Positions 3,628 through 12,836 of a stretch of 29,778 bases of DNA are shown piece after piece (positions within the stretch are counted from its first letter, which is position 1; each line of letters starts with the position of its first letter). Location of the stretch: IMG/VR virus record IMGVR_UViG_3300032288_002424, positions 1 to 29,778 of that record; one strand, written 5' to 3'. The notes beneath the pieces were generated by a model. The model had not been told where the DNA came from. It made no database searches and saw only the letters and a list, made by a program, of their open reading frames with translations. The stretch comes from a virus. The position numbers and the translations under genes are program-made.

Positions 3628-4308
3628 TTATTTATCGGAAATGACAAAGTTGTAAACACGGCCCATTACTTCAGCATTTCTTAACTTTAACATCAGCAGT
3701 GTTGATTCGTCTTCAACGAGGACGTATCTTCGATCCCAGTTCCAATCGGTCTTTAATATCCAAGATTCGATTGCTGATGTACAGGTAATTTTAGGACTCT
3801 GCGATTTAAGCCATTTTATATATTTTGTTTTTTCCTCAGTATCGCCTTTGAATTTATGAGGCAACAGATAGACTCTATAGTTGTACTTGTTGTGAGGAAG
3901 ATTTTTTACTACGATCGCCGATGATTTTTCTAAAAGATCCGACGAATCTGCACTTGGTTCAAATTGATGTATTAATATATCATCAAATTCTTTTGAAATG
4001 CTATCATAGAAGTCTTTTTCATTGGTGTATAGATCTATGATCGATTGCTCGATACGTTTTGCCCATACACTAGTATTGTGATCTATTAGAAAATTTGCTA
4101 TTCGTAGCAGTTCATCTCGATGTTTGTAGCTTCTAGAAGCATATGAAAAGTTTCTTCCTGTCGGCGGCTCTTCATTAATACAGAACTCTCTTACAGATTC
4201 TAGAGAGCCAGTACGAAACATTCCTGCTCCGTTAACACGTAGAGAAACTTTATAGAGCCATTTTCCGTAAAATCGTTTATTGGTCGTTTTGATTTTCTGA
4301 GGATTCAT
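3628..4308 (-). CDS. Unrecognised 226-aa phage protein overlapping clpA
   Basis: A soluble, basic protein of mixed alpha/beta character. Visible blocks are KRFYGKWLYKVSLRVNGAGM near the N-terminus, a helical middle (about 60-120), LPHNKYNYRVYLLPHKFKGD, and a C-terminal RRYVLVEDESTLLMLKLRNA followed by EVMGRVYNFVISDK. I do not recognise the family and see no catalytic motif. The two YxYKV/YNYRVYLLPHK strands look like a repeated fold element. The start codon lies inside the 3' end of clpA, with a 32-base overlap in another frame; no later ATG gives a sensible protein. A weak AGAAG purine run precedes the ATG. Co-expression with the ClpA unfoldase makes a link possible (for example an adaptor), but nothing in the sequence shows it. 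Confidence 0.65.
   Translation of the reverse strand: MNPQKIKTTNKRFYGKWLYKVSLRVNGAGMFRTGSLESVREFCINEEPPTGRNFSYASRSYKHRDELLRIANFLIDHNTSVWAKRIEQSIIDLYTNEKDFYDSISKEFDDILIHQFEPSADSSDLLEKSSAIVVKNLPHNKYNYRVYLLPHKFKGDTEEKTKYIKWLKSQSPKITCTSAIESWILKTDWNWDRRYVLVEDESTLLMLKLRNAEVMGRVYNFVISDK
3629..3636 (-). promoter_or_regulatory. Possible late promoter (GATAAATA), ambiguous
   Basis: A second exact GATAAATA octamer lies five bases before the ATG at 3624. It also encodes the last codons and stop of the upstream gene (GAT AAA TAA, D-K-stop), so it may be chance. If used, RNA would begin at the ATG itself, giving a leaderless message. Confidence 0.25.
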
Positions 4309-6634
4309 TTATCAATTCTTCTGCTGCCTTTTCAGCATTAGCACGTTTAATTGCTTTCTTTTCTTCTTTAGTTAATTGCTTTGGCATTTCAGTTACATCA
4401 AAAGTCAATTCGTCGTTGTCGATACTGATAGTTACTCTACCACCATTTACTAAATCTCCAAATAGCACTCTGCGGCTTAATGGTGACTTGATGTTGTTAT
4501 CGATTAATCGGGCCAATGGTCTTGCACCCATCTTCTTATCGTAACCTCGTTCACACAACCATTTTAGAGCATCTGCATTAGCAGCGATTTCGATGCCTTT
4601 GTCTTTGAGCTGATCGTTCAATTCATTGATGAATTTTTTAACAATTTGAACAACAATTTCGTCGCCAAGTTTGTTAAATTTGATAATTGCATCTAATCTA
4701 TTGCGGAACTCAGGAGCAAAGAATTTTTTAACTGCTTTGTCGTCCTCACCATCTTTTTCTAAGGTAGCAAAGCCAATAGTATTATTTTCATTATCGGCAG
4801 CACCTAAGTTAGATGTCATAATCAATATACAGTTACGACCGTCTGCTTGTTTTCCATTTGATCCTGTTACAAAACCATTGTCCATAAATCCTAACAGAAT
4901 ATTCGAAACATCTGGGTGAGCTTTTTCAATTTCGTCTAGTAACAAGATACAATTAGGAGTTTCTTGCAGTTTTGTAATTAACTGACCTGCGTTATCTTCA
5001 TAACCCACATATCCGGGAGGAGCACCAATTAATCTAGCAACACTGTGCTTCTCTTGATATTCACTCATATCAAATCTAACCAATGGCATGGCCATTTTAT
5101 CTGATAATTGTTTTGCAGTTTCTGTTTTACCACAACCTGTTGGCCCAAGGAATAAAAATGATCCAATGGGTTTATTAGGAGTTTTCATGCCAGCTTGTGC
5201 AACAAAGATTTTATCTAAAAGATTTGCAATGGCTGTATCCTGTCCGTAGACTGAGCCTTTCATGCCTTTTTCTAAATCTGCTAGATTTTTGCTTTCTTTC
5301 TGTGCAACAGTTTCTAATGGCATATTGATCATTTTAGACAATTCGTATGTAACCTGTTCAATGTCTACTATTTGTTCAACACCTTCCATGCCTTCTTCGT
5401 CTTTGAGCTTATACCTTGCAGAAGCACAATCTAGAATGTCAATGGCTTTGTCTGGTAATTTTTTATCACTCATGTACTTCACTGACAACTTAACTGCCTG
5501 TTCAATGGCAGCATCACTAATTTTAACATTGTGATGTTTTTCGTAATATTTCTTGATTCCTTTAAGAATCTTAATAGACATTTCGGGAGTTGGTTCATCG
5601 ATAGTAACACGTTGGAATCGACGCATTAACGCACGATCCTTTTCGAAATGCTTGCGATATTCTTCCCAAGTAGTTGATGCAATGAGTTTGATGATGCCTT
5701 TGGTAAGGATAGGTTTTAACATATTGGCCATATCGTTACTGCTTTGATTAGCAGCACCTGCACCGCTCATCATATGAGCTTCATCAATGAAAAGGATGAT
5801 CTTTCCTTTGCGTTCTAATGCCATTAGCACTGCTTTGACTCTTTCTTCAAAGTCTCCACGATACTTACTACCTGCTAGAATAGCACTGATATCAAGAGTA
5901 TAAACTTGATGGTCTTGGATGAACTTAGGAACTTTCTTTTCAAATATCTTACGAGCAATGCCTTCTGCAATAGCAGTTTTACCAACACCCGGATCGCCTA
6001 CCATTAATACGTTGCACTTGTTACGACGAGCAAGGATAAGTTGAATTTTCTCGATCTCTTCATCACGCCCAATAACTGGATCGATTTTTCTTTGTTTAGC
6101 CTGTAGGCTGAGATTAGTACAGTATTGATTTAATATTTTGTCTACTTGATTAGTATTAACAACACGATGTTCTGTAGATTCTTCTTCATCTTCAACCACA
6201 ACAATATTCTCTTGGAAATACTTTACAAACTTTTCTTTGGTTACTCCGCCCTTCTGTAGGAAGTAAAAACCAAAACTATTCTTTTCTGACAACACGCTGA
6301 TAATAACATCAGCAACTTCCATACGTTGACGACCACTAAAAAGCACCTGTGTAAAGCAACGATTTAGTACACGCTCTACACTGTTAGTTTTTTTCGGTCT
6401 AGCATTAGTATCTGAAGTTTTGATATCCTGCATATTGTTTTTTAGATAATGCTCTAGGTTTGTTTTTATAAAAGCAGCATCGCCTCCGAATCCTTCAATC
6501 AATTCGTAGGATTCTTGATCACTCATAATACCAAATACAATGTGCTCTATAGTAATATACTCGTGACCAAGTTCTTTGGCAACAGCAACTGATTGTTCAA
6601 ATATTTTTTGTAAATTTTGACTAGGTTCGATCAT
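4277..6634 (-). CDS. clpA: ClpA-like AAA+ unfoldase
   Basis: A complete 785-aa Hsp100 of the ClpA class, close to the usual length of about 750-760. It has an N-domain of paired Clp repeats (1-143) and an acidic linker. The first AAA+ module has Walker A GDPGVGKT at 213-220 and Walker B ILFIDEAH at 280-287. The second has Walker A GPTGCGKT at 497-504, Walker B ILLLDEIEKAH from 563 and a sensor-2 GARPLARLI near 696. The ClpB/Hsp104 middle coiled coil is absent. An IGF tripeptide at 620-622 sits in the loop just before FFAPEFRNRLD, exactly where ClpA (IGL) and ClpX (IGF) carry their ClpP-docking tripeptide. It therefore probably unfolds proteins and feeds them to host or phage ClpP in the cytoplasm. 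The start overlaps the deformylase stop (TAATG). ClpC is the main alternative name. Confidence 0.93.
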   Translation of the reverse strand: MIEPSQNLQKIFEQSVAVAKELGHEYITIEHIVFGIMSDQESYELIEGFGGDAAFIKTNLEHYLKNNMQDIKTSDTNARPKKTNSVERVLNRCFTQVLFSGRQRMEVADVIISVLSEKNSFGFYFLQKGGVTKEKFVKYFQENIVVVEDEEESTEHRVVNTNQVDKILNQYCTNLSLQAKQRKIDPVIGRDEEIEKIQLILARRNKCNVLMVGDPGVGKTAIAEGIARKIFEKKVPKFIQDHQVYTLDISAILAGSKYRGDFEERVKAVLMALERKGKIILFIDEAHMMSGAGAANQSSNDMANMLKPILTKGIIKLIASTTWEEYRKHFEKDRALMRRFQRVTIDEPTPEMSIKILKGIKKYYEKHHNVKISDAAIEQAVKLSVKYMSDKKLPDKAIDILDCASARYKLKDEEGMEGVEQIVDIEQVTYELSKMINMPLETVAQKESKNLADLEKGMKGSVYGQDTAIANLLDKIFVAQAGMKTPNKPIGSFLFLGPTGCGKTETAKQLSDKMAMPLVRFDMSEYQEKHSVARLIGAPPGYVGYEDNAGQLITKLQETPNCILLLDEIEKAHPDVSNILLGFMDNGFVTGSNGKQADGRNCILIMTSNLGAADNENNTIGFATLEKDGEDDKAVKKFFAPEFRNRLDAIIKFNKLGDEIVVQIVKKFINELNDQLKDKGIEIAANADALKWLCERGYDKKMGARPLARLIDNNIKSPLSRRVLFGDLVNGGRVTISIDNDELTFDVTEMPKQLTKEEKKAIKRANAEKAAEELINESSENQNDQ

Positions 6635-7128
6635 TACTTCATTTTCCTTATTTTCTTCATAGCTAAGTTTAACTTCATCTGTGATACTTTGTCAACAAAA
6701 CATACGCCATCTAAATGATCGTACTCATGTTGAAAACACTTTGCGAGATAACCATCAACTTTAATTTCTTTTAAATTTCCATCTCGATCTTGATATTCTG
6801 CTACGGCCCATGCTGGTCTTTTTATAGTTAAAAACAGTCCGGGGTAGCTCAGACATCCTTCTCTATCTAAAACTTGTTCATCGCTGACTTCTTTAATGAC
6901 AGGATTGAATACAGCGAAAGGCACAGGAAAACCAGAGATGTTATTACTGCCCATAACAAATACACGTTTGGCGATTCCTATTTGATTTGCAGCTAATCCA
7001 ATACCGTTGTTTGCTAACATGAATTCTATCATGTCGTTTTCTAATTGACCAGCATCGCCGTCGTCTTTGAAATTCCAAGCTGTGCTTTTTTCAATTAATG
7101 TATGATGTGGACCTAAATTAAAATTCAT
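6634..7128 (-). CDS. def: Peptide deformylase
   Basis: A 164-aa peptide deformylase, which removes the formyl group from the N-terminal Met of new proteins at the ribosome exit. All three family motifs are intact: GIGLAANQ (42-49), EGCLS with metal ligand C92 (90-94), and QHEYDHLDG with H134, E135 and H138. The length is near the bacterial enzyme (about 170) and it keeps a basic C-terminal helix (KLNLAMKKIRKMK), unlike the shortened versions known in some cyanophages. The ATG overlaps the dnaJ-like stop region by 11 bases and the stop overlaps the clpA ATG. The three genes thus form one translation-coupled unit. Confidence 0.95.
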   Translation of the reverse strand: MNFNLGPHHTLIEKSTAWNFKDDGDAGQLENDMIEFMLANNGIGLAANQIGIAKRVFVMGSNNISGFPVPFAVFNPVIKEVSDEQVLDREGCLSYPGLFLTIKRPAWAVAEYQDRDGNLKEIKVDGYLAKCFQHEYDHLDGVCFVDKVSQMKLNLAMKKIRKMK

Positions 7129-7951
7129 TTTTTAGTTGTGCTATTCTTCGTTGTTGATCGGCTGTGAGATTTCTGGGTACCAATACTTTAATCTTTATTA
7201 AGAGATTTCCTTTCATTCTGCTTCTCATATTAGGCAGACCTTCTCCTCGACAACTTAAAACGGTTTCTGGTTGTGTACCTGGAGGAACAGTAATGTCAAT
7301 GTCTCTTCCTCCTAGCGTTTGTATTGAAATCGAACTACCTAACAATGCTTCCCATACAGAAATATTTTTTTCATAGATAATTGAATCACCATCACGCTTA
7401 AACAATGGATGAGGTTTTATAAAAATATTAACAATAAGATCGCCGGCAGGTATTCCTGGGATCGAATCATCGCCCATACCCTCATATCGAATTTGTTGTC
7501 CATGATCTATACCTGGCGGAACCCTAATGTTGATCATTTTATTTCTTCCGCCCGGAACTCCTACTTCGGCATCAATGTCTTTGCCGTTCAACACATCTTC
7601 TAAGGATATTTCAACATTGATATTGAGACTCTTATTTCTTCTCATAGCTCGTTGATTAAATCCAAATCCAAAGTTACTAAAGATGTCATTGAAGTTGCCA
7701 TGATTAAAATGGAATTCAAATGGGTTTCCTCCCTGCTGATGTCCGGGTCTTCCGTTTGGATCCATTCCCATATCAATCATTTGCTTTTTCTGTGGGTCGG
7801 TAAGGAATTCGTAAGCCTGAGAAATTTCCTTAAATTTCTTTTCATCACCGCCTCTGTCAGGATGATGCTTCATCGCCATTGAGCGATAGGCTTTTTTAAT
7901 TTCGGCTTCTGATGCGCCTCGTTGTAATCCTAGTGTAGAGTAATAATCCAT
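7118..7951 (-). CDS. DnaJ/CbpA-like J-domain co-chaperone
   Basis: A 277-aa class II J-protein. The J-domain (1-60) opens with DYYSTLGLQRGASEAEIKKA and has the essential HPD at 30-32, which stimulates DnaK ATPase. A Gly/Phe-rich linker follows (about 70-100, with HQQGGNPFEFHFNHG and SNFGFGFN). Then come C-terminal substrate-binding domains (RVPPGIDHGQQIRYEGMGD, then DITVPPGTQPETVLSCRGEGLP). The CxxCxGxG zinc fingers of true DnaJ are missing, so CbpA is the nearest model. It should work with host DnaK; no phage dnaK is seen here. The J-domain begins at residue 2, so the ATG at 7951 is secure. It has no ribosome binding site and lies six bases after a perfect TATAAT. Confidence 0.93.
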   Translation of the reverse strand: MDYYSTLGLQRGASEAEIKKAYRSMAMKHHPDRGGDEKKFKEISQAYEFLTDPQKKQMIDMGMDPNGRPGHQQGGNPFEFHFNHGNFNDIFSNFGFGFNQRAMRRNKSLNINVEISLEDVLNGKDIDAEVGVPGGRNKMINIRVPPGIDHGQQIRYEGMGDDSIPGIPAGDLIVNIFIKPHPLFKRDGDSIIYEKNISVWEALLGSSISIQTLGGRDIDITVPPGTQPETVLSCRGEGLPNMRSRMKGNLLIKIKVLVPRNLTADQQRRIAQLKNEF

Positions 7952-7957
7952 AGTACT

Positions 7958-7986
7958 ATTATATGATAAAAAAAGGACTGTGTCAA
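7958..7986 (-). promoter_or_regulatory. Perfect sigma-70 consensus promoter before the dnaJ-like gene
   Basis: On the minus strand TTGACA (7986-7981) and TATAAT (7963-7958) are separated by exactly 17 bp, the full E. coli consensus. The start point should fall at about 7951, which is the A of the dnaJ-like ATG, so the message would be leaderless. The -35 lies in the loop of the terminator hairpin and the spacer contains the terminator T-run. This suggests transcription by unmodified host RNA polymerase, probably early. Confidence 0.8.
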
Positions 7987-7997
7987 GCAGTCCTTTT
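7971..7997 (-). terminator. Rho-independent terminator of the lysis unit
   Basis: A perfect 10-bp stem AAAAGGACTG / CAGTCCTTTT with a 7-base loop. On the minus strand it is followed by an unbroken T run through 7968. It lies 25 bases after the stop of the secreted-protein gene, so it ends the unit that starts near 11970. The plus strand also has a T-rich flank, but no plus-strand gene leads into it. Confidence 0.9.
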
Positions 7998-8021
7998 ATT
8001 TAATTAAAGATTTACTGAGCT

Positions 8022-8243
8022 TTATTTTTTCTTTTCTGGAACTGCTGTGCCTTCGTGTTTTTTATGCTTTTTTACTTCCTTGCAATCTTGCTTTGGTTTT
8101 TTAGTTTTTGGATCAATAACTGGTTTACCATCTTTGCCTTGGACGTCTACGCAGACTTTTTTAGTTTCTGCTTTTTTATCATCGGCAGCAAATGCTGGAA
8201 CAGCAAATGCAGCTACGATCATCAGTGCTAATAATTTTTTCAT
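8022..8243 (-). CDS. Small exported Lys-rich protein, 73 aa
   Basis: From the ATG at 8243 the protein begins with a textbook Sec signal peptide (MKKLLALMIVAAFAVPAFA, cleavage after AFA before ADDKK). The mature part of about 54 residues is very Lys-rich, with only two cysteines flanking a KDGKPVIDPKTKKPKQ segment, which could form one disulfide in the periplasm. AAGGA lies 7 bases before this ATG; the ATG at 8270 is inside the holin gene and would bury the signal peptide. It is the last gene before the terminator, behind the holin. Its role is unknown; a helper of lysis or an envelope-modifying protein is possible from position only. Confidence 0.75.
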   Translation of the reverse strand: MKKLLALMIVAAFAVPAFAADDKKAETKKVCVDVQGKDGKPVIDPKTKKPKQDCKEVKKHKKHEGTAVPEKKK

Positions 8244-8253
8244 AATCATTTCC

Positions 8254-8700
8254 TTATAATGGTTCGTCAATCTGTGGTGCTGGCATTGGTTTGCCAGTAG
8301 ATGAAGTTACTACTGCTGGTTTAGCCGCAGGTACTGCTATCGGTGCTAGTGGAGGAGTATAGCTTGGTGCTGGTGGAGGAGTATATGCCGGAACAGCAGC
8401 TGGTACTTGAGCCCCACCATTGTTAGCCCCACCTAATTTTTCCTGTGTACGACCAAATGCCGCAATACCTAATACAGCACCCATCGCAATGTGGAATAGT
8501 CCAGCACCTTGCAGTGTTAATGGACTCCATTGTGTAATTGGAGAGTGCGTAAGGGTTTGTAATAAACTCCATAAGACTGGGAATATAACCATGTCCATCA
8601 TACAGACTACCATATACATCCAGCCCATCATTGGACGCCATTTGCTGTTCATCCAATCTTCTTTCTTTTGTTCACTTGCGCTCTTAACTTCTTCTGTCAT
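8254..8700 (-). CDS. Holin of the 3-TM (GTA holin-like) family
   Basis: A 148-aa membrane protein. After a charged N-terminus come WRPMMGWMYMVVCMMDMVIF (about 21-40), PVLWSLLQ, and the QWSPLTLQGAGLFHIAMGAV (57-76) block ending IAAFGRTQEK. The WRP...GW and QW.PLTL..GGLF..MGA pattern is that of the three-TM holin family first named from gene-transfer agents (PF11351). Such proteins form inner-membrane lesions that release the endolysin. The C-terminal 60 residues are a Pro/Ala-rich tail (YTPPPAPSYTPPLAPI) predicted to be disordered. AAGGAGCGG gives a strong ribosome binding site. The endolysin and spanins lie just upstream in the same unit. Confidence 0.8.
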   Translation of the reverse strand: MTEEVKSASEQKKEDWMNSKWRPMMGWMYMVVCMMDMVIFPVLWSLLQTLTHSPITQWSPLTLQGAGLFHIAMGAVLGIAAFGRTQEKLGGANNGGAQVPAAVPAYTPPPAPSYTPPLAPIAVPAAKPAVVTSSTGKPMPAPQIDEPL

Positions 8701-8718
8701 TCTCCGCTCCTTGTTTAA

Positions 8719-8781
8719 TTATTTCTTTGGGTGTTTGCCACCACAAACTGGACAACCTTCTTCGGTATTAGTTAAAACCAT
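8719..8781 (-). CDS. Candidate 20-aa CxxC mini-protein
   Basis: Between the DUF4337-like gene and the holin, an ATG at 8781 opens a 20-codon frame reading MVLTNTEEGCPVCGGKHPKK followed by TAA. It has an excellent ribosome binding site (AAGGAG, 7-base spacing) that lies inside the end of the upstream gene. The CPVCGGKH part is half of a zinc-ribbon-like site (CxxC plus His). The start overlaps the upstream stop region by ten bases. The good ribosome binding site and the fact that it fills the gap support a real gene, but it is very short and no homology can be checked. Confidence 0.5.
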   Translation of the reverse strand: MVLTNTEEGCPVCGGKHPKK

Positions 8782-9335
8782 AATAATACTCCTTGTAGAC
8801 TTAATAGTATCCCGGCTCCGGCCACTACAAAGCTACCCCAGAACATTGCCATACTGACGGCAAGAATACTTGCTGACAGTACAACAATAGCCAACTGATA
8901 AGCAGTTGATGCATAACCGATCCATGGGCTAGATTTCTTAGCGATTTCACGTTCGTGTTCCATGGCTCGTGCCTTTTCAGCAATCTCTTTCTTCTCAGAA
9001 TCCATGCGTTCTTTCTCTGCCATGAACTCTGCACGTAGTTTCGGATCATTAGTAGTCTTGGCTGCGATTTCGTAACTAACACCACGACCTGCTTTGGCCT
9101 GATATTGTGCCCATGTATTGTTAGCACCTAGTGTGTTGTTTAATACTGTGCTAGATAATTTGCCGCCGTACCATGCATTAACCGCTAGTAACAAAGCAAA
9201 TACAGAAATAACCATACCTGCTTTGTCTTTTAATTTTGCTTCACGCTCTGAACGTGAGCCAACTGGTGGTTTTGGTGCGTCCGGATCCTTTGGTTGTTTG
9301 TTTACTAAATTTAATACGCTGTCAATTAGTGCCAT
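8772..9335 (-). CDS. DUF4337-like inner-membrane protein, 187 aa
   Basis: After a charged N-terminus with KPPVGSRSEREAKLKDK there is a membrane segment (about 40-55, GMVISVFALLLAVNAWYGG). Then follows NNTWAQYQAKAGRGVSYEIA, which matches the family core that I know as DUF4337 (N..W..YQAK..K). A long charged helix (about 100-135) is followed by two C-terminal membrane segments (about 140-187). The function of DUF4337 is unknown. It sits between the spanin genes and the holin, so it may be a second holin, an antiholin or a pinholin-type regulator; that is inference from position. AAGGAG precedes the ATG. Confidence 0.7.
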   Translation of the reverse strand: MALIDSVLNLVNKQPKDPDAPKPPVGSRSEREAKLKDKAGMVISVFALLLAVNAWYGGKLSSTVLNNTLGANNTWAQYQAKAGRGVSYEIAAKTTNDPKLRAEFMAEKERMDSEKKEIAEKARAMEHEREIAKKSSPWIGYASTAYQLAIVVLSASILAVSMAMFWGSFVVAGAGILLSLQGVLLWF

Positions 9336-9351
9336 TACTTCGCTCCTTTGT

Positions 9352-9621
9352 TTATTTTACACTATCGAAAATTTCTTTTTGTTCTTTGTGCCATTGTATC
9401 CATGCATCAACTTTAACACGGCATTCGTAATAGGTTGAATAGTTTACAACTACTACATCGAGTAGTTTACTTAATTCTTTAGTTTCCTTGGCAGCTTCCT
9501 GTAATTCTGGACAGGCTTTTGCAATTTCAGGAGGAACATCTGGGAATGTACGTTTTACAGGAACAGTCTCTAGGCATCCTGTTAATAACAAAGCTGGAAT
9601 CAATATCAATAAAGATTTCAT
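9352..9621 (-). CDS. Outer-membrane spanin lipoprotein (Rz1-like)
   Basis: An 89-aa lipoprotein. The signal MKSLLILIPALLLTGC ends in a lipobox (LLTGC) with the lipidated Cys at 16. Residue +2 is Leu, not Asp, so sorting to the outer membrane is expected. The mature protein has a Pro-containing segment VPVKRTFPDVPPE and a helix ending DAWIQWHKEQKEIF. With the i-spanin gene, whose end it overlaps by four bases (ATGA), it should span the periplasm and fuse inner and outer membrane in the last step of lysis. Similar C...FPDVPP lipoproteins occur in many T4-like marine phages. Confidence 0.8.
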   Translation of the reverse strand: MKSLLILIPALLLTGCLETVPVKRTFPDVPPEIAKACPELQEAAKETKELSKLLDVVVVNYSTYYECRVKVDAWIQWHKEQKEIFDSVK

Positions 9622-10085
9622 TTGCCATCTCCAGGTTTGCGATTTTTAGCAGCATCGTTGTGAATATCAACAGCTTCTGGCGCAACTTTACATTCTTTAT
9701 CAATTAGTTTTTCTACTTCTTTGATTCTTTCTTGTATGACATATTGTGTATCTCTAACAACCTTAACTTTGTCTACATACACTTTCTGAATAACTGTATT
9801 TGTTTTAGCAGACTTAGCTTCAGCTTCAGCAACTTTCTTTTCCATCTCAGCAACACGCTCACGCCAAACCATCTCAGTAGAATATCCGCCTTTAAAAAAT
9901 AATCCACCCGCTAATAAAAGAACTCCTAATATTTGTATAGGTAGTTTGTAAGCGTTTACAAAAGGAATGAATTTGATAAAGAACCCAGCTATAGTTGCTA
10001 CGAGTCCTACCAAAAGAACAGTATCGATGACCCAAATGATAAGACTATCTGGAATTAAACTGAATATCCAGCCTAGCTGCCACAT
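9618..10085 (-). CDS. Probable inner-membrane spanin (Rz-like)
   Basis: A 155-aa protein with two N-terminal hydrophobic segments (about 11-40 and 48-66, the second ending LLLAGGLFFKGGY). These are followed by a long charged coiled coil (about 73-135; WRERVAEMEKKVAEAEAKSA, then VIQERIKEVEKLIDKE) that would extend into the periplasm. A polar tail ends NRKPGDGK. This topology and the following lipoprotein gene identify it as the i-spanin. Two hydrophobic segments instead of one is slightly unusual for Rz. The ATG is one base after the endolysin stop. Confidence 0.7.
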   Translation of the reverse strand: MWQLGWIFSLIPDSLIIWVIDTVLLVGLVATIAGFFIKFIPFVNAYKLPIQILGVLLLAGGLFFKGGYSTEMVWRERVAEMEKKVAEAEAKSAKTNTVIQKVYVDKVKVVRDTQYVIQERIKEVEKLIDKECKVAPEAVDIHNDAAKNRKPGDGK

Positions 10086-10086
10086 G

Positions 10087-10704
10087 TTACACTCCTAGCA
10101 CATGCTTGGCATGTTCATAGTGTTTTTTACGATCTTCAAGACCAATGGTGCCGCCGTTGATACGTTTAGTCATTGTTAGGATATCGTCTTTATCTGCTAG
10201 TGAATTTAAATTGTTGGTCTCCCAGAACCAGCAAGCACTTTGCACAGCGCCTTCAAATGTCTGTAGGTATTCTGCACATTCTTCAACAGGAATGTCTAGA
10301 CTTCCGGCAAAAAATGTATAATTGTTTTTACCAGTTAATTGAATAAGACCACGTCCGCAATAACGGAATCCGTCGCCTGTTTCCTCTGGGCCGTTGCCCA
10401 TACGCCCACCATAAATTTTGTTGGCAATTTTTTCTTGCTGGTGTGCATATTCTCTTGCTAGATCTAATGTAGGAAAGTATTTTGGAAATACTTTAACTAG
10501 ACTCTCTGCTTTATAATTTAGGTTTTCTTTTAATGCACGGAAACCGCCGCTTTCGTGAGCGCATTGTGCTAGGAAAGCAGCGATACGCTGAGGAGTATTA
10601 ATTTCGTATTCTGGAAGAATTTCATTCAATGCATCTAGCCAGTGATCCAAATACGGATTACCTGGAATAATTTGTGCTAATTGATCTTTAGTTATTAATG
10701 ACAT
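10087..10704 (-). CDS. Endolysin, glycoside hydrolase family 19
   Basis: A 205-aa chitinase-class GH19 domain with no signal peptide, as expected for a holin-released endolysin. The catalytic block AFLAQCAHESGGFRALKENL gives E51 (general acid) and E60 (general base). It is followed by the YGGRMGNGPEETGDGFRYCG and GRGLIQLTGKNNY substrate-cleft motifs, and SACWFWETNNLNSLAD. It should cut the glycan strands of peptidoglycan. There is no separate cell-wall binding domain. The gene is the first of the lysis genes, followed by the spanins, and its start overlaps the preceding stop (TAATG). Confidence 0.93.
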   Translation of the reverse strand: MSLITKDQLAQIIPGNPYLDHWLDALNEILPEYEINTPQRIAAFLAQCAHESGGFRALKENLNYKAESLVKVFPKYFPTLDLAREYAHQQEKIANKIYGGRMGNGPEETGDGFRYCGRGLIQLTGKNNYTFFAGSLDIPVEECAEYLQTFEGAVQSACWFWETNNLNSLADKDDILTMTKRINGGTIGLEDRKKHYEHAKHVLGV

Positions 10705-11459
10705 TAATCTATCCTTTGCAGTAACATAGCTTGACCGTTATTGTCAAACATAAAATTTTCACCTACTTTGTTAATGTTGTAGTTTCCTAAAACTTTGGTA
10801 AGCCAGAAAATCTCACTCATGGCGTCTTGATCCATAGAAATTGTATCGGTGATACCTTCAAGTATTGAATCTGTATCAGATTCTTTAACCATGCGCAGTT
10901 GAATCTTTTTATCGAACGGTTTGTGAATGGTAATTACATCTCCCGCTAATGTTAGATCATCCATTAAAGTCTTATTGAAGAATTTTTTAATTCCTTCAGT
11001 TTTAAATCTATTCATTAACCCGTCGTAGTCTTTGGCTGATGCAGGAATCACTGTGCGTAAAGTATCTTCAGTTACTTCATGAACTGCACTGTCTTTGTGA
11101 TATTTAAATTTCCAATCATCGATGCCTGTGAGCTTTTTTACACCGTACATGATTTCTTTGATATTTTCAGCAAGTCTAGGGCTTCTTTCAATTTCAACAA
11201 ATACGCTGTACTCACCTTTGTCATTTTCACCCGATGACACATCAGAATCTAGAACAAAACTATATCCCTTCTCGATAAATTCCATTAGGTCTCTTGCAGG
11301 ATCTCTGTCTTTTACTTGAAAGCTGATAACACATACATCTTGATCCTCGCCCATTTTTGATCTAAATGTATCGACTTCAAAAATTGGATAGACCATAAGT
11401 TCGAGGTCTTCTGGACGAAGTCCTTCGTTAAGCTGCTGGTTGTTCTTCTGGTTGTGCAT
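10704..11459 (-). CDS. T4-like phage conserved-type protein, 251 aa, unknown
   Basis: A soluble acidic protein with a core containing ELMVYPIFEVDTFRSKMGED, then VISFQVKDRDPARDLMEFIE and VLDSDVSSGENDKGEYSVFV. The middle is basic/helical, with a C-terminal domain ending NNGQAMLLQRID. I recall the DVSSGE-containing core from T4-like cyanophage proteins annotated as hypothetical, often encoded next to the following gene type. The ATG at 11459 has AGGAA 8 bases upstream but lies 32 bases inside the preceding gene; the next Met (residue 22) would remove the overlap but lacks better support. Being in the late unit before the endolysin, it may be structural or an assembly factor. Confidence 0.7.
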   Translation of the reverse strand: MHNQKNNQQLNEGLRPEDLELMVYPIFEVDTFRSKMGEDQDVCVISFQVKDRDPARDLMEFIEKGYSFVLDSDVSSGENDKGEYSVFVEIERSPRLAENIKEIMYGVKKLTGIDDWKFKYHKDSAVHEVTEDTLRTVIPASAKDYDGLMNRFKTEGIKKFFNKTLMDDLTLAGDVITIHKPFDKKIQLRMVKESDTDSILEGITDTISMDQDAMSEIFWLTKVLGNYNINKVGENFMFDNNGQAMLLQRID

Positions 11460-11970
11460 TTGCCATTTCCTGTGCTTGTTGATCTGCAGGATCGATGTGT
11501 GAATTAACCCCGCCGTTTAAACTAACAATATCTTCTATTTTATTTCTATCTAATTCTGTGTATCCACGATTAATATCGTACATTAATTTTTTAGGCATTG
11601 CTATTTTAACCATCCATACTTCTTTGTGATCAATTTTGCCTTTTTTTGTACCAGGACGAATGTCTTCTGGTTTTTTAATTTTTCTTACTTCGGATATACT
11701 GGTTTCTGCAAATTTTACTTCACAGCCATATTCGAGAAGTCTCTTCCCTCCTACGGGCTCAGGCATTTTGTCTTTAGGCCACATAAATGTACATTCTACA
11801 AAATAGCGTGTTTCTTTAGGCCCTTCGACTAATTCGCCATCGATCCAGTTGTCGTAAACATAGGTATCTAGTTCATCTATCACACGCTCAAAATCCTTAA
11901 GCATTTTTAAGCTGTTATTAGAACCGTAAAGCTGTTCTATGTTGTTTATGATGTCTTTTACGTTAGCCAT
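11428..11970 (-). CDS. T4-like phage conserved-type protein, 180 aa, unknown
   Basis: The protein contains KMLKDFERVIDELDTYVYDN, then WIDGELVEGPKETRYFVECT and FMWPKDKMPEPVGGKRLLEY. A pattern of FERVIDELD.Y....W.DGELV.GP..xRY and MPxPxGG.RLxxxGC recurs in T4-like marine phages with no assigned function. The C-terminus is Gln/Ala/Pro-rich and probably flexible. It is the first gene of the late unit: a GATAAATA octamer lies 16 bases before the ATG, with AGGAGA as ribosome binding site in a short leader. That arrangement argues for late expression and hence a virion or assembly role. Confidence 0.75.
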   Translation of the reverse strand: MANVKDIINNIEQLYGSNNSLKMLKDFERVIDELDTYVYDNWIDGELVEGPKETRYFVECTFMWPKDKMPEPVGGKRLLEYGCEVKFAETSISEVRKIKKPEDIRPGTKKGKIDHKEVWMVKIAMPKKLMYDINRGYTELDRNKIEDIVSLNGGVNSHIDPADQQAQEMANAQPEEQPAA

Positions 11971-11985
11971 GATGTCTCCTAATTG

Positions 11986-11993
11986 TATTTATC
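11986..11993 (-). promoter_or_regulatory. Late promoter (GATAAATA) of the lysis unit
   Basis: The octamer GATAAATA is followed by CAATTAGGAGACATC and the ATG at 11970. An RNA starting about six bases after the octamer would have a leader of about 10 bases containing AGGAGA. This is the best placed late-promoter candidate in the window, in the divergent gap before phoH. Confidence 0.65.
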
Positions 11994-12014
11994 AGTCAAA
12001 ACTTAAACGTAACT

Positions 12015-12020
12015 TATAAT
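12015..12020 (+). promoter_or_regulatory. Candidate -10 (TATAAT) for phoH
   Basis: A perfect TATAAT lies 96 bases before the phoH ATG in the 146-bp divergent gap. No convincing -35 (TTGACA) or MotA box is seen at the right distance, so the promoter class is open. It is the only good -10 on the plus strand of this gap. Confidence 0.35.
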
Positions 12021-12056
12021 ATTCTCCGCAGATCGTTAAATACTTTTGTGTTCGTA

Positions 12057-12084
12057 CACGGACACTACGGTTAAAAGGTCCGTG
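12057..12084 (+). promoter_or_regulatory. Hairpin in the phoH leader
   Basis: CACGGAC and GTCCGTG form a perfect 7-bp stem with a 14-base loop. It lies 12 bases before the purine-rich ribosome binding site of phoH. There is no T run after it, so it is not a simple terminator. It may stabilise the leader or bind a regulator, but this is not shown. Confidence 0.45.
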
Positions 12085-12116
12085 CCTAACACATTAAAAA
12101 GGGGGGCTAACCTTAT

Positions 12117-12836
12117 ATGAAGCGAAAAAGAGCGCAATCCGCATATTTGCAAGAGAATGTAATAAATATCAATCAACGTTTAGAAGAAAAACGCCGCAGA
12201 GTTCAAATATATCCCAAAAATCTAAGTCAAGAAACCTACTTACTTAAACTTAACGATCCCAAAAAAATGATAATTTTTGCCATAGGGCCCGCGGGCACTG
12301 GTAAAACCATGCTGGCGGTTCAATGGGCTATTGATCAACTCAAATACGGATCCGCTGATAAGATTATTATTACAAGACCAGCAGTTTCAGTTGATGAAGA
12401 ACACGGGTTTTTACCAGGTGACCTGAATCAAAAGATGGAGCCCTGGACTAAGCCGATTATGGATGTTTTTGCAGAAAACTATAATGCTAAAGAAATTACT
12501 AACATGATAACCGAGGGGGTGATTGAAACTAGCCCTTTAGCATATATGAGAGGCAGAACATTTAAGAATGCGGTAATAATTGCAGATGAGATGCAAAATG
12601 CGACACCTAGTCAGATGAAAATGTTGTTGACAAGGTTAGGAACAGGTTCTAAGATGGTTGTAACTGGAGATTTACAACAAGCAGATCGTCCGAGCAACAA
12701 TGGACTATTGGAATTTTTGAAACTGTTTAATGATTTTGAAAATCATCGTTACGTAGATATCTGCCATTTCACAGTTGGCGATATTGAAAGACATGACGCT
12801 GTCAAGGAGGTATTAGCGATTTACGGAGATTCTTGA
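12117..12836 (+). CDS. phoH: PhoH-like P-loop ATPase
   Basis: A 239-aa PhoH-family protein and the only plus-strand gene. Walker A is GPAGTGKT at 57-64, followed by ITRPAVSVDEEHGFLPGDLN, the PLAYMRGRTF strand and Walker B IIADEMQNATPSQMKM from 154. The sensor region TGDLQQADRP follows. PhoH is very common in marine phages; it is an ATPase related to helicase domains, probably acting on RNA, and its phage role is unsettled. The N-terminus is Lys/Arg-rich (MKRKRAQSAY). An unusual purine tract AAAAAGGGGGG precedes the ATG by 10-12 bases. It is convergent with the 82-aa gene, whose end it overlaps by 16 bases. Confidence 0.93.
   Translation: MKRKRAQSAYLQENVININQRLEEKRRRVQIYPKNLSQETYLLKLNDPKKMIIFAIGPAGTGKTMLAVQWAIDQLKYGSADKIIITRPAVSVDEEHGFLPGDLNQKMEPWTKPIMDVFAENYNAKEITNMITEGVIETSPLAYMRGRTFKNAVIIADEMQNATPSQMKMLLTRLGTGSKMVVTGDLQQADRPSNNGLLEFLKLFNDFENHRYVDICHFTVGDIERHDAVKEVLAIYGDS

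Follow-up and report, generated by a model that had tools for sequence, protein, structure and literature searches.

The dnaJ-like gene of a freshwater T4-type phage is preceded by a conserved compressed junction, which we consider likely to combine an overlapping terminator and sigma70 promoter with a leaderless or near-leaderless dnaJ start and, probably, a late start. The junction is a 47-base stretch (7951-7997, minus strand) in which stop and start signals share bases. It was studied within a window of 29,778 nucleotides, i.e., the whole stretch analyzed here (positions 1 to 29,778 of IMG/VR record IMGVR_UViG_3300032288_002424).

According to the proposed mechanism, RNA transcribed from the upstream lysis genes would fold into a 10-bp hairpin and stop at the T run. 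The same DNA would act as a consensus sigma70 promoter, and polymerase bound there would begin transcription on the A of the dnaJ ATG or no more than about 3 nt upstream of it. The dnaJ message would then be leaderless or near-leaderless, with ribosomes recognizing its 5'-terminal AUG. A TAAATA box probably adds a start of the T4 late type, which would give a late dnaJ mRNA with a 5'-terminal stem-loop. Competition between promoter-bound and elongating polymerase is plausible. The junction illustrates the extent of punctuation compression, as the terminator, the -35, the spacer and the start codon share or abut bases.

Layout of the junction and its neighborhood

The minus-strand order is AAAAGGACTGC TTGACA CAGTCCTTTTTTTATCA TATAAT AGTACT ATG. 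An intrinsic-terminator-like hairpin, AAAAGGACTG-CTTGACA-CAGTCCTTTT (7971..7997), was detected by terminator scan, folding and covariation. It is composed of the left arm AAAAGGACTG (7997-7988), the loop CTTGACA (7987-7981) and the right arm CAGTCCTTTT (7980-7971). The run of seven T (7968..7974) comes after the GC stem and lies inside the promoter spacer. The RNA of the 10-bp stem folds with -11.5 to -12.5 kcal/mol (z about -3.4 to -5.2 against shuffled sequences). An Rfam search gave no match.

The -35 hexamer TTGACA (7981..7986) is in the hairpin loop, and the -10 hexamer TATAAT is at 7958..7963. The 17-nt spacer between them consists mostly of the right arm and the T run. The six bases AGTACT (7957-7952) separate the end of the -10 from the dnaJ ATG at 7951. 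No other 12/12 match with a spacer of 16-18 nt occurs in the record, and 0.04 such matches are expected by chance per window under a first-order Markov model of the window. The terminator scan and the sequence thus confirm the layout given by the original prediction: a minus-strand TTGACA-N17-TATAAT with its -35 in a terminator loop, a spacer made of the right arm and the T run, and a -10 ending six bases before the ATG. Transcription from sigma70 promoters usually starts at the seventh base after the -10. At this junction the seventh base is the A of the dnaJ ATG, so the start is predicted on that A.

The dnaJ-like gene (7118..7951, minus strand) encodes 277 amino acids with a J domain and DnaJ_C (Pfam), and its message is predicted to be leaderless. 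The prediction had also held that the domain fixes the start of the protein. This is correct: the start codon is secure because the Pfam DnaJ domain extends from residue 2 onward and M1 does not vary among homologues. No Shine-Dalgarno (SD) sequence was found ahead of the start codon.

All the neighboring genes described here are also on the minus strand. The last gene before the hairpin is a small ORF of 73 amino acids (8022..8243) with the SD AAGGA and a signal-peptide-like start; it has no family match in PHROGs or Pfam. Upstream of it is the lysis unit (8254..10704), annotated with PHROGs and Pfam, which includes a holin-like gene (8254-8700), a DUF4337 gene (8772-9335), an Rz-like spanin gene (9352-9621), a phrog_4952 gene (9618-10085) and a GH19 endolysin gene (10087-10704). 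Genes for a peptide deformylase (PDF; 6634..7128, PF01327) and a Clp-type ATPase (4277..6634, phrog_4871 in PHROGs) lie downstream of dnaJ. A block conserved in most relatives, CTCAGTAAATC (8005-8020), lies between the preceding gene's stop codon and the late box. It was rejected as a repeated genome-wide motif, having only 5 matches in 384 kb.

Judged by the capsid protein, the nearest relatives in culture are large T4-type phages, namely Phosso (73%), PA5oct and GAP32 (both about 67%). No DNA-level relatives were found in the annotated phage collection. Sinorhizobium phage Phosso shares the dnaJ-PDF-Clp synteny, but it has no such junction, since dnaJ, as annotated there, starts within the end of the preceding gene.

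Conservation of the junction and competing explanations

We compared 67 distinct regions upstream of dnaJ relatives from IMG/VR phages and counted a sigma70 promoter as kept if it had at least 10 of 12 matches. The promoter is kept in 55 of the 67 regions. Its -35 is inside the hairpin in 53 of these 55 cases, and TTGAC is kept in most relatives. The -10 is conserved as well; in 53 of the 55 its end lies 5-9 nt upstream of the start codon, most often at 6 nt (32 cases). This geometry places the predicted 5' end at or near the start codon in 53 of the 55 promoters. The claims that the terminator and the promoter are interleaved, and that the RNA should begin at the start codon, thus gain support from conservation, the latter in the form of a start predicted on the ATG or no more than about 3 nt away. 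In the original prediction, this RNA would be an early dnaJ message.

The hairpin is conserved by covariation. In 38 aligned sequences, 94.6% of the stem cells are paired (86.4% in shuffles), and seven of the ten stem pairs have changed on both sides. There are 31 double-changed cells, compared with 8.2 in shuffles, which ignore relatedness, and 0-7 in slid controls. Many stem types occur, including GGACTGC/ACAGTCC, GGACTAC/GTAGTCC, GGCTGC/GCAGCC and GGGTCGC/GCGACCC. Thirteen stem cells are G-U pairs on the minus strand and mismatches on the opposite strand. As these pairs fit only minus-strand RNA, the structure is assigned to the RNA of the dnaJ strand, and a plus-strand role for the hairpin was dropped. 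Covariation thus separates selection on DNA (the promoter) from selection on RNA (the hairpin) within one element.

The original prediction was incomplete, as it missed a conserved T4-type late-promoter-like box, ATTAAATA (7997..8004, minus strand), at the foot of the hairpin. Its TAAATA core (8002-7997) is invariant in 38 of 38 aligned relatives, including those without the -35 and -10, and is thereby better conserved than either hexamer. TAAATA is near the hairpin foot in 59 of the 67 distinct upstream regions, and it is enriched directly upstream of ORFs. Initiation from this box would be expected near 7992-7991, among the hairpin's first bases, and dnaJ probably has a second, late start of this kind. 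A homologue of the phage late sigma factor gp55 and T4 core proteins were found in relatives, with a gp55-like match in one of them (G010).

The hairpin and the promoter spacing look both selected and separable, because each outlives the other in some lineages. A minority of relatives (L009, L039, L049, L054, L156, L236) have lost the -35 and -10 and still keep dnaJ, so the sigma70 promoter is not indispensable. TAAATA and the hairpin are retained without the promoter in L009, L015, L039, L049, L054 and L236. Conversely, L252 and L253 (about 30% identity) have TTGACA-N17-TATAAT-N6/7-ATG without a hairpin. In L239, L245 and L307, which share 44-49% identity with the queries by which they were found, the interleaved layout is built on a different hairpin and TAAATA is absent; for instance, L239 has GGCAGC-TTGACA-GTTGCC followed by TATAAT-N6-ATG.

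The hairpin might instead be mainly the 5' leader of a late dnaJ message started from TAAATA, acting as a stabilizer or translation element and not as a terminator, with the sigma70 promoter as a lineage-variable add-on. The retention of TAAATA and the hairpin without a promoter in L009, L015, L039, L049 and L054 agrees with this, as does the frequency of a hairpin after TAAATA (9 of 256 cases, versus 20 of 4885 for control hexamers). The same order, TAAATA-hairpin-T7-ATG without a sigma70 promoter, precedes another gene at L148:4841 (minus strand). The T run is weaker in some relatives (L010, L023 and L080); however, it is strong in most, and a GC stem with T7 is the standard terminator shape. 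The interleaved hairpins of L239, L245 and L307, which lack TAAATA, also speak against this explanation. We regard it as possible but rather doubtful.

It is unlikely that dnaJ is translated mainly from read-through of the lysis unit, with a weak or silent promoter and an SD-independent AUG in an unstructured stretch rich in U and A. The absence of an SD, the location of the lysis genes and dnaJ on one strand, and the relatives that carry dnaJ without a sigma70 promoter are compatible with such translation. However, a terminator-like hairpin should block read-through, and both hexamers, the 17-nt spacer and the 5-9 nt spacing are near-perfectly conserved.

The near-perfect palindromic arms flanking the -35 could also suggest a DNA operator for a repressor in place of an RNA hairpin. 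This was rejected as highly improbable: the arms covary to many sequences, the G-U pairs work only in minus-strand RNA, and the T run comes after the repeat. Finally, a chance overlap of promoter-like bases in an AT-rich phage, which might be proposed because AT-rich terminators often contain -10-like strings and weak promoter matches are not overrepresented across the entire region, has practically no chance of being correct: the expectation per window is far below one, the promoter is kept in most of the upstream regions, and conservation across the 67 already refutes it, so the overlap observed in the sequence is real.

The overlapped terminator and promoter with a near-leaderless dnaJ start remain our preferred reading. 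Several observations count against it. A late promoter right upstream of its own gene's terminator is odd unless late transcripts read through. The promoter is lost in a minority of relatives, the T run is weak in the three named above, and in L288 the interleaved promoter is combined with an SD-containing leader.

Leaderless spacing and interleaved elements in related genomes

A leaderless message was originally described as unusual in an otherwise SD-rich genome. About half of the ORFs have an SD (21 of 37 in the window). The word unusual is only partly right, since further sigma70 promoters lie 5-7 nt ahead of an ATG in relatives, where late-type boxes at 4-5 nt are also numerous, and comparable interleaved elements are found before other genes of phages.

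Whole records of relatives contain up to 48 consensus promoters, compared with 0-4 matches to a control pattern per record. The spacing between the -10 and the ATG in related genomes is bimodal (n=76): 14 promoters are at 5-7 nt, one is at 10 nt, and the rest are at 16-70 nt. The 5-7 nt group mostly has no SD, whereas an SD is present in 53 of 61 cases of the 16-70 nt group. Some promoters with short spacing also have an in-frame SD start shortly downstream. In L130 (about 8902-12815, minus strand), tRNA-like genes seem, from sequence only, to lie directly behind their own consensus sigma70 promoters.

Of the 479 ORF starts in the window and two relatives, 22 have a TAAATA that ends 4-5 nt ahead of them; no other hexamer, including those of the SD, is as frequent at this distance. 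These boxes are predicted to define a class of leaderless late messages. The late-promoter-like GATAAATA was seen 4-5 nt before an ATG in the window (3246-3234 and 3636-3624, minus strand) and in L132, L138, L142 and L151. Pelagibacter phage HTVC008M has seven TAAATA cases at 4-5 nt in one 50-kb segment and one in the next, and a segment of Atu_ph07 has one. None was found in the tested segments of T4, S-PM2, PA5oct, GAP32 and Phosso; in the T4 segment there was also no late box 3-7 nt before an ATG. A limited literature search found no paper on leaderless late messages in T4-type phages. The data are suggestive of leaderless translation as a systematic feature of a large T4-type phage group, most of it uncultured, and of one pelagiphage in culture.

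Four of the 11 records searched, and HTVC008M, encode the ribosomal protein bS21. Its genes were seen at G001:33352-33510, G005:140381-140539, G009:15466-15624, G015:19669-19824 and L326:41228-41431, and the carriers are the groups showing the leaderless class. Phage bS21 has been proposed to favor phage transcripts late in infection (PMC9723584). A link of bS21 to initiation on leaderless mRNAs is speculation. We tentatively suggest that the large T4-type phages examined here and HTVC008M may produce leaderless messages as a whole class, initiated at both sigma70 and gp55-type late promoters, with possible help from phage-encoded bS21. In this scheme the dnaJ junction would switch between a leaderless sigma70 message and a late 5'-hairpin message with one overlapping set of bases.

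A second conserved interleaved terminator/promoter (L112-L125), with the -35 in the right arm, lies about 10 kb from dnaJ in relatives. It precedes, with a normal SD leader, a small gene that shows a relationship to PHROG 639 (transcriptional regulator) and, more weakly, to T4 DsbA (22% identity). A scan of IMG/VR with the pattern TTGAC...TTTTT...TATAAT-N6-ATG gave at least 76 testable distinct matches. Among the matches listed, 16 of 76 have a hairpin over the -35, versus 1.9 with shuffled upstream sequence, and one precedes another J-domain protein (L336). Elements with the order terminator, promoter and ATG, and with TTGAC in or beside a hairpin loop, were seen before various further genes of IMG/VR contigs (L392, L390, L363, L362, L344, L335, L336 and others).

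Comparison with known systems

In T4 late promoters, a TATA box of 8 bp precedes the start by about one helical turn (PMC2988020). They are recognized by a TATAAATA-like box at this distance, and the dnaJ junction resembles them in its late-promoter-like TAAATA box. They differ from the present phages, where many boxes lie 4-5 nt before the ATG.

The cI mRNA of phage lambda is naturally leaderless (PMC8138138). In that type case transcription begins at the AUG and the message lacks an SD; at dnaJ an SD is likewise absent and a start of this kind is predicted. Unlike the dnaJ junction, lambda cI has no interleaved terminator, and the dnaJ case is a predicted one from a lytic phage of the T4 type.

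Reportedly, Arbiol described the promoter-early stem-loop (PeSL) cassettes of T4-type phages in 2010 (cited in PMC4503421). A PeSL joins a sigma70-type promoter and a terminator stem-loop into one intergenic unit, and at the dnaJ junction a strong sigma70-like promoter is likewise joined to a stem-loop. Promoters in the early regions of relatives often follow a terminator in tandem, as in PeSLs. The PeSL stem-loop is reported to be an effective terminator, whereas the dnaJ hairpin is a predicted one (10-bp stem and T run). Compared with PeSLs as so described, the dnaJ junction differs in having the -35 in the loop, a spacer made of the right arm and the T run, a -10 abutting the ATG, and an added late box. 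PeSLs are reported to occur in many copies in regions of gene shuffling; the dnaJ element is present in one copy per locus examined, always before dnaJ, and these fixed loci gave no sign of shuffling. The dnaJ junction is best read as a promoter-terminator composite in compressed form, a relative of the PeSL cassettes found in T4-type phages.
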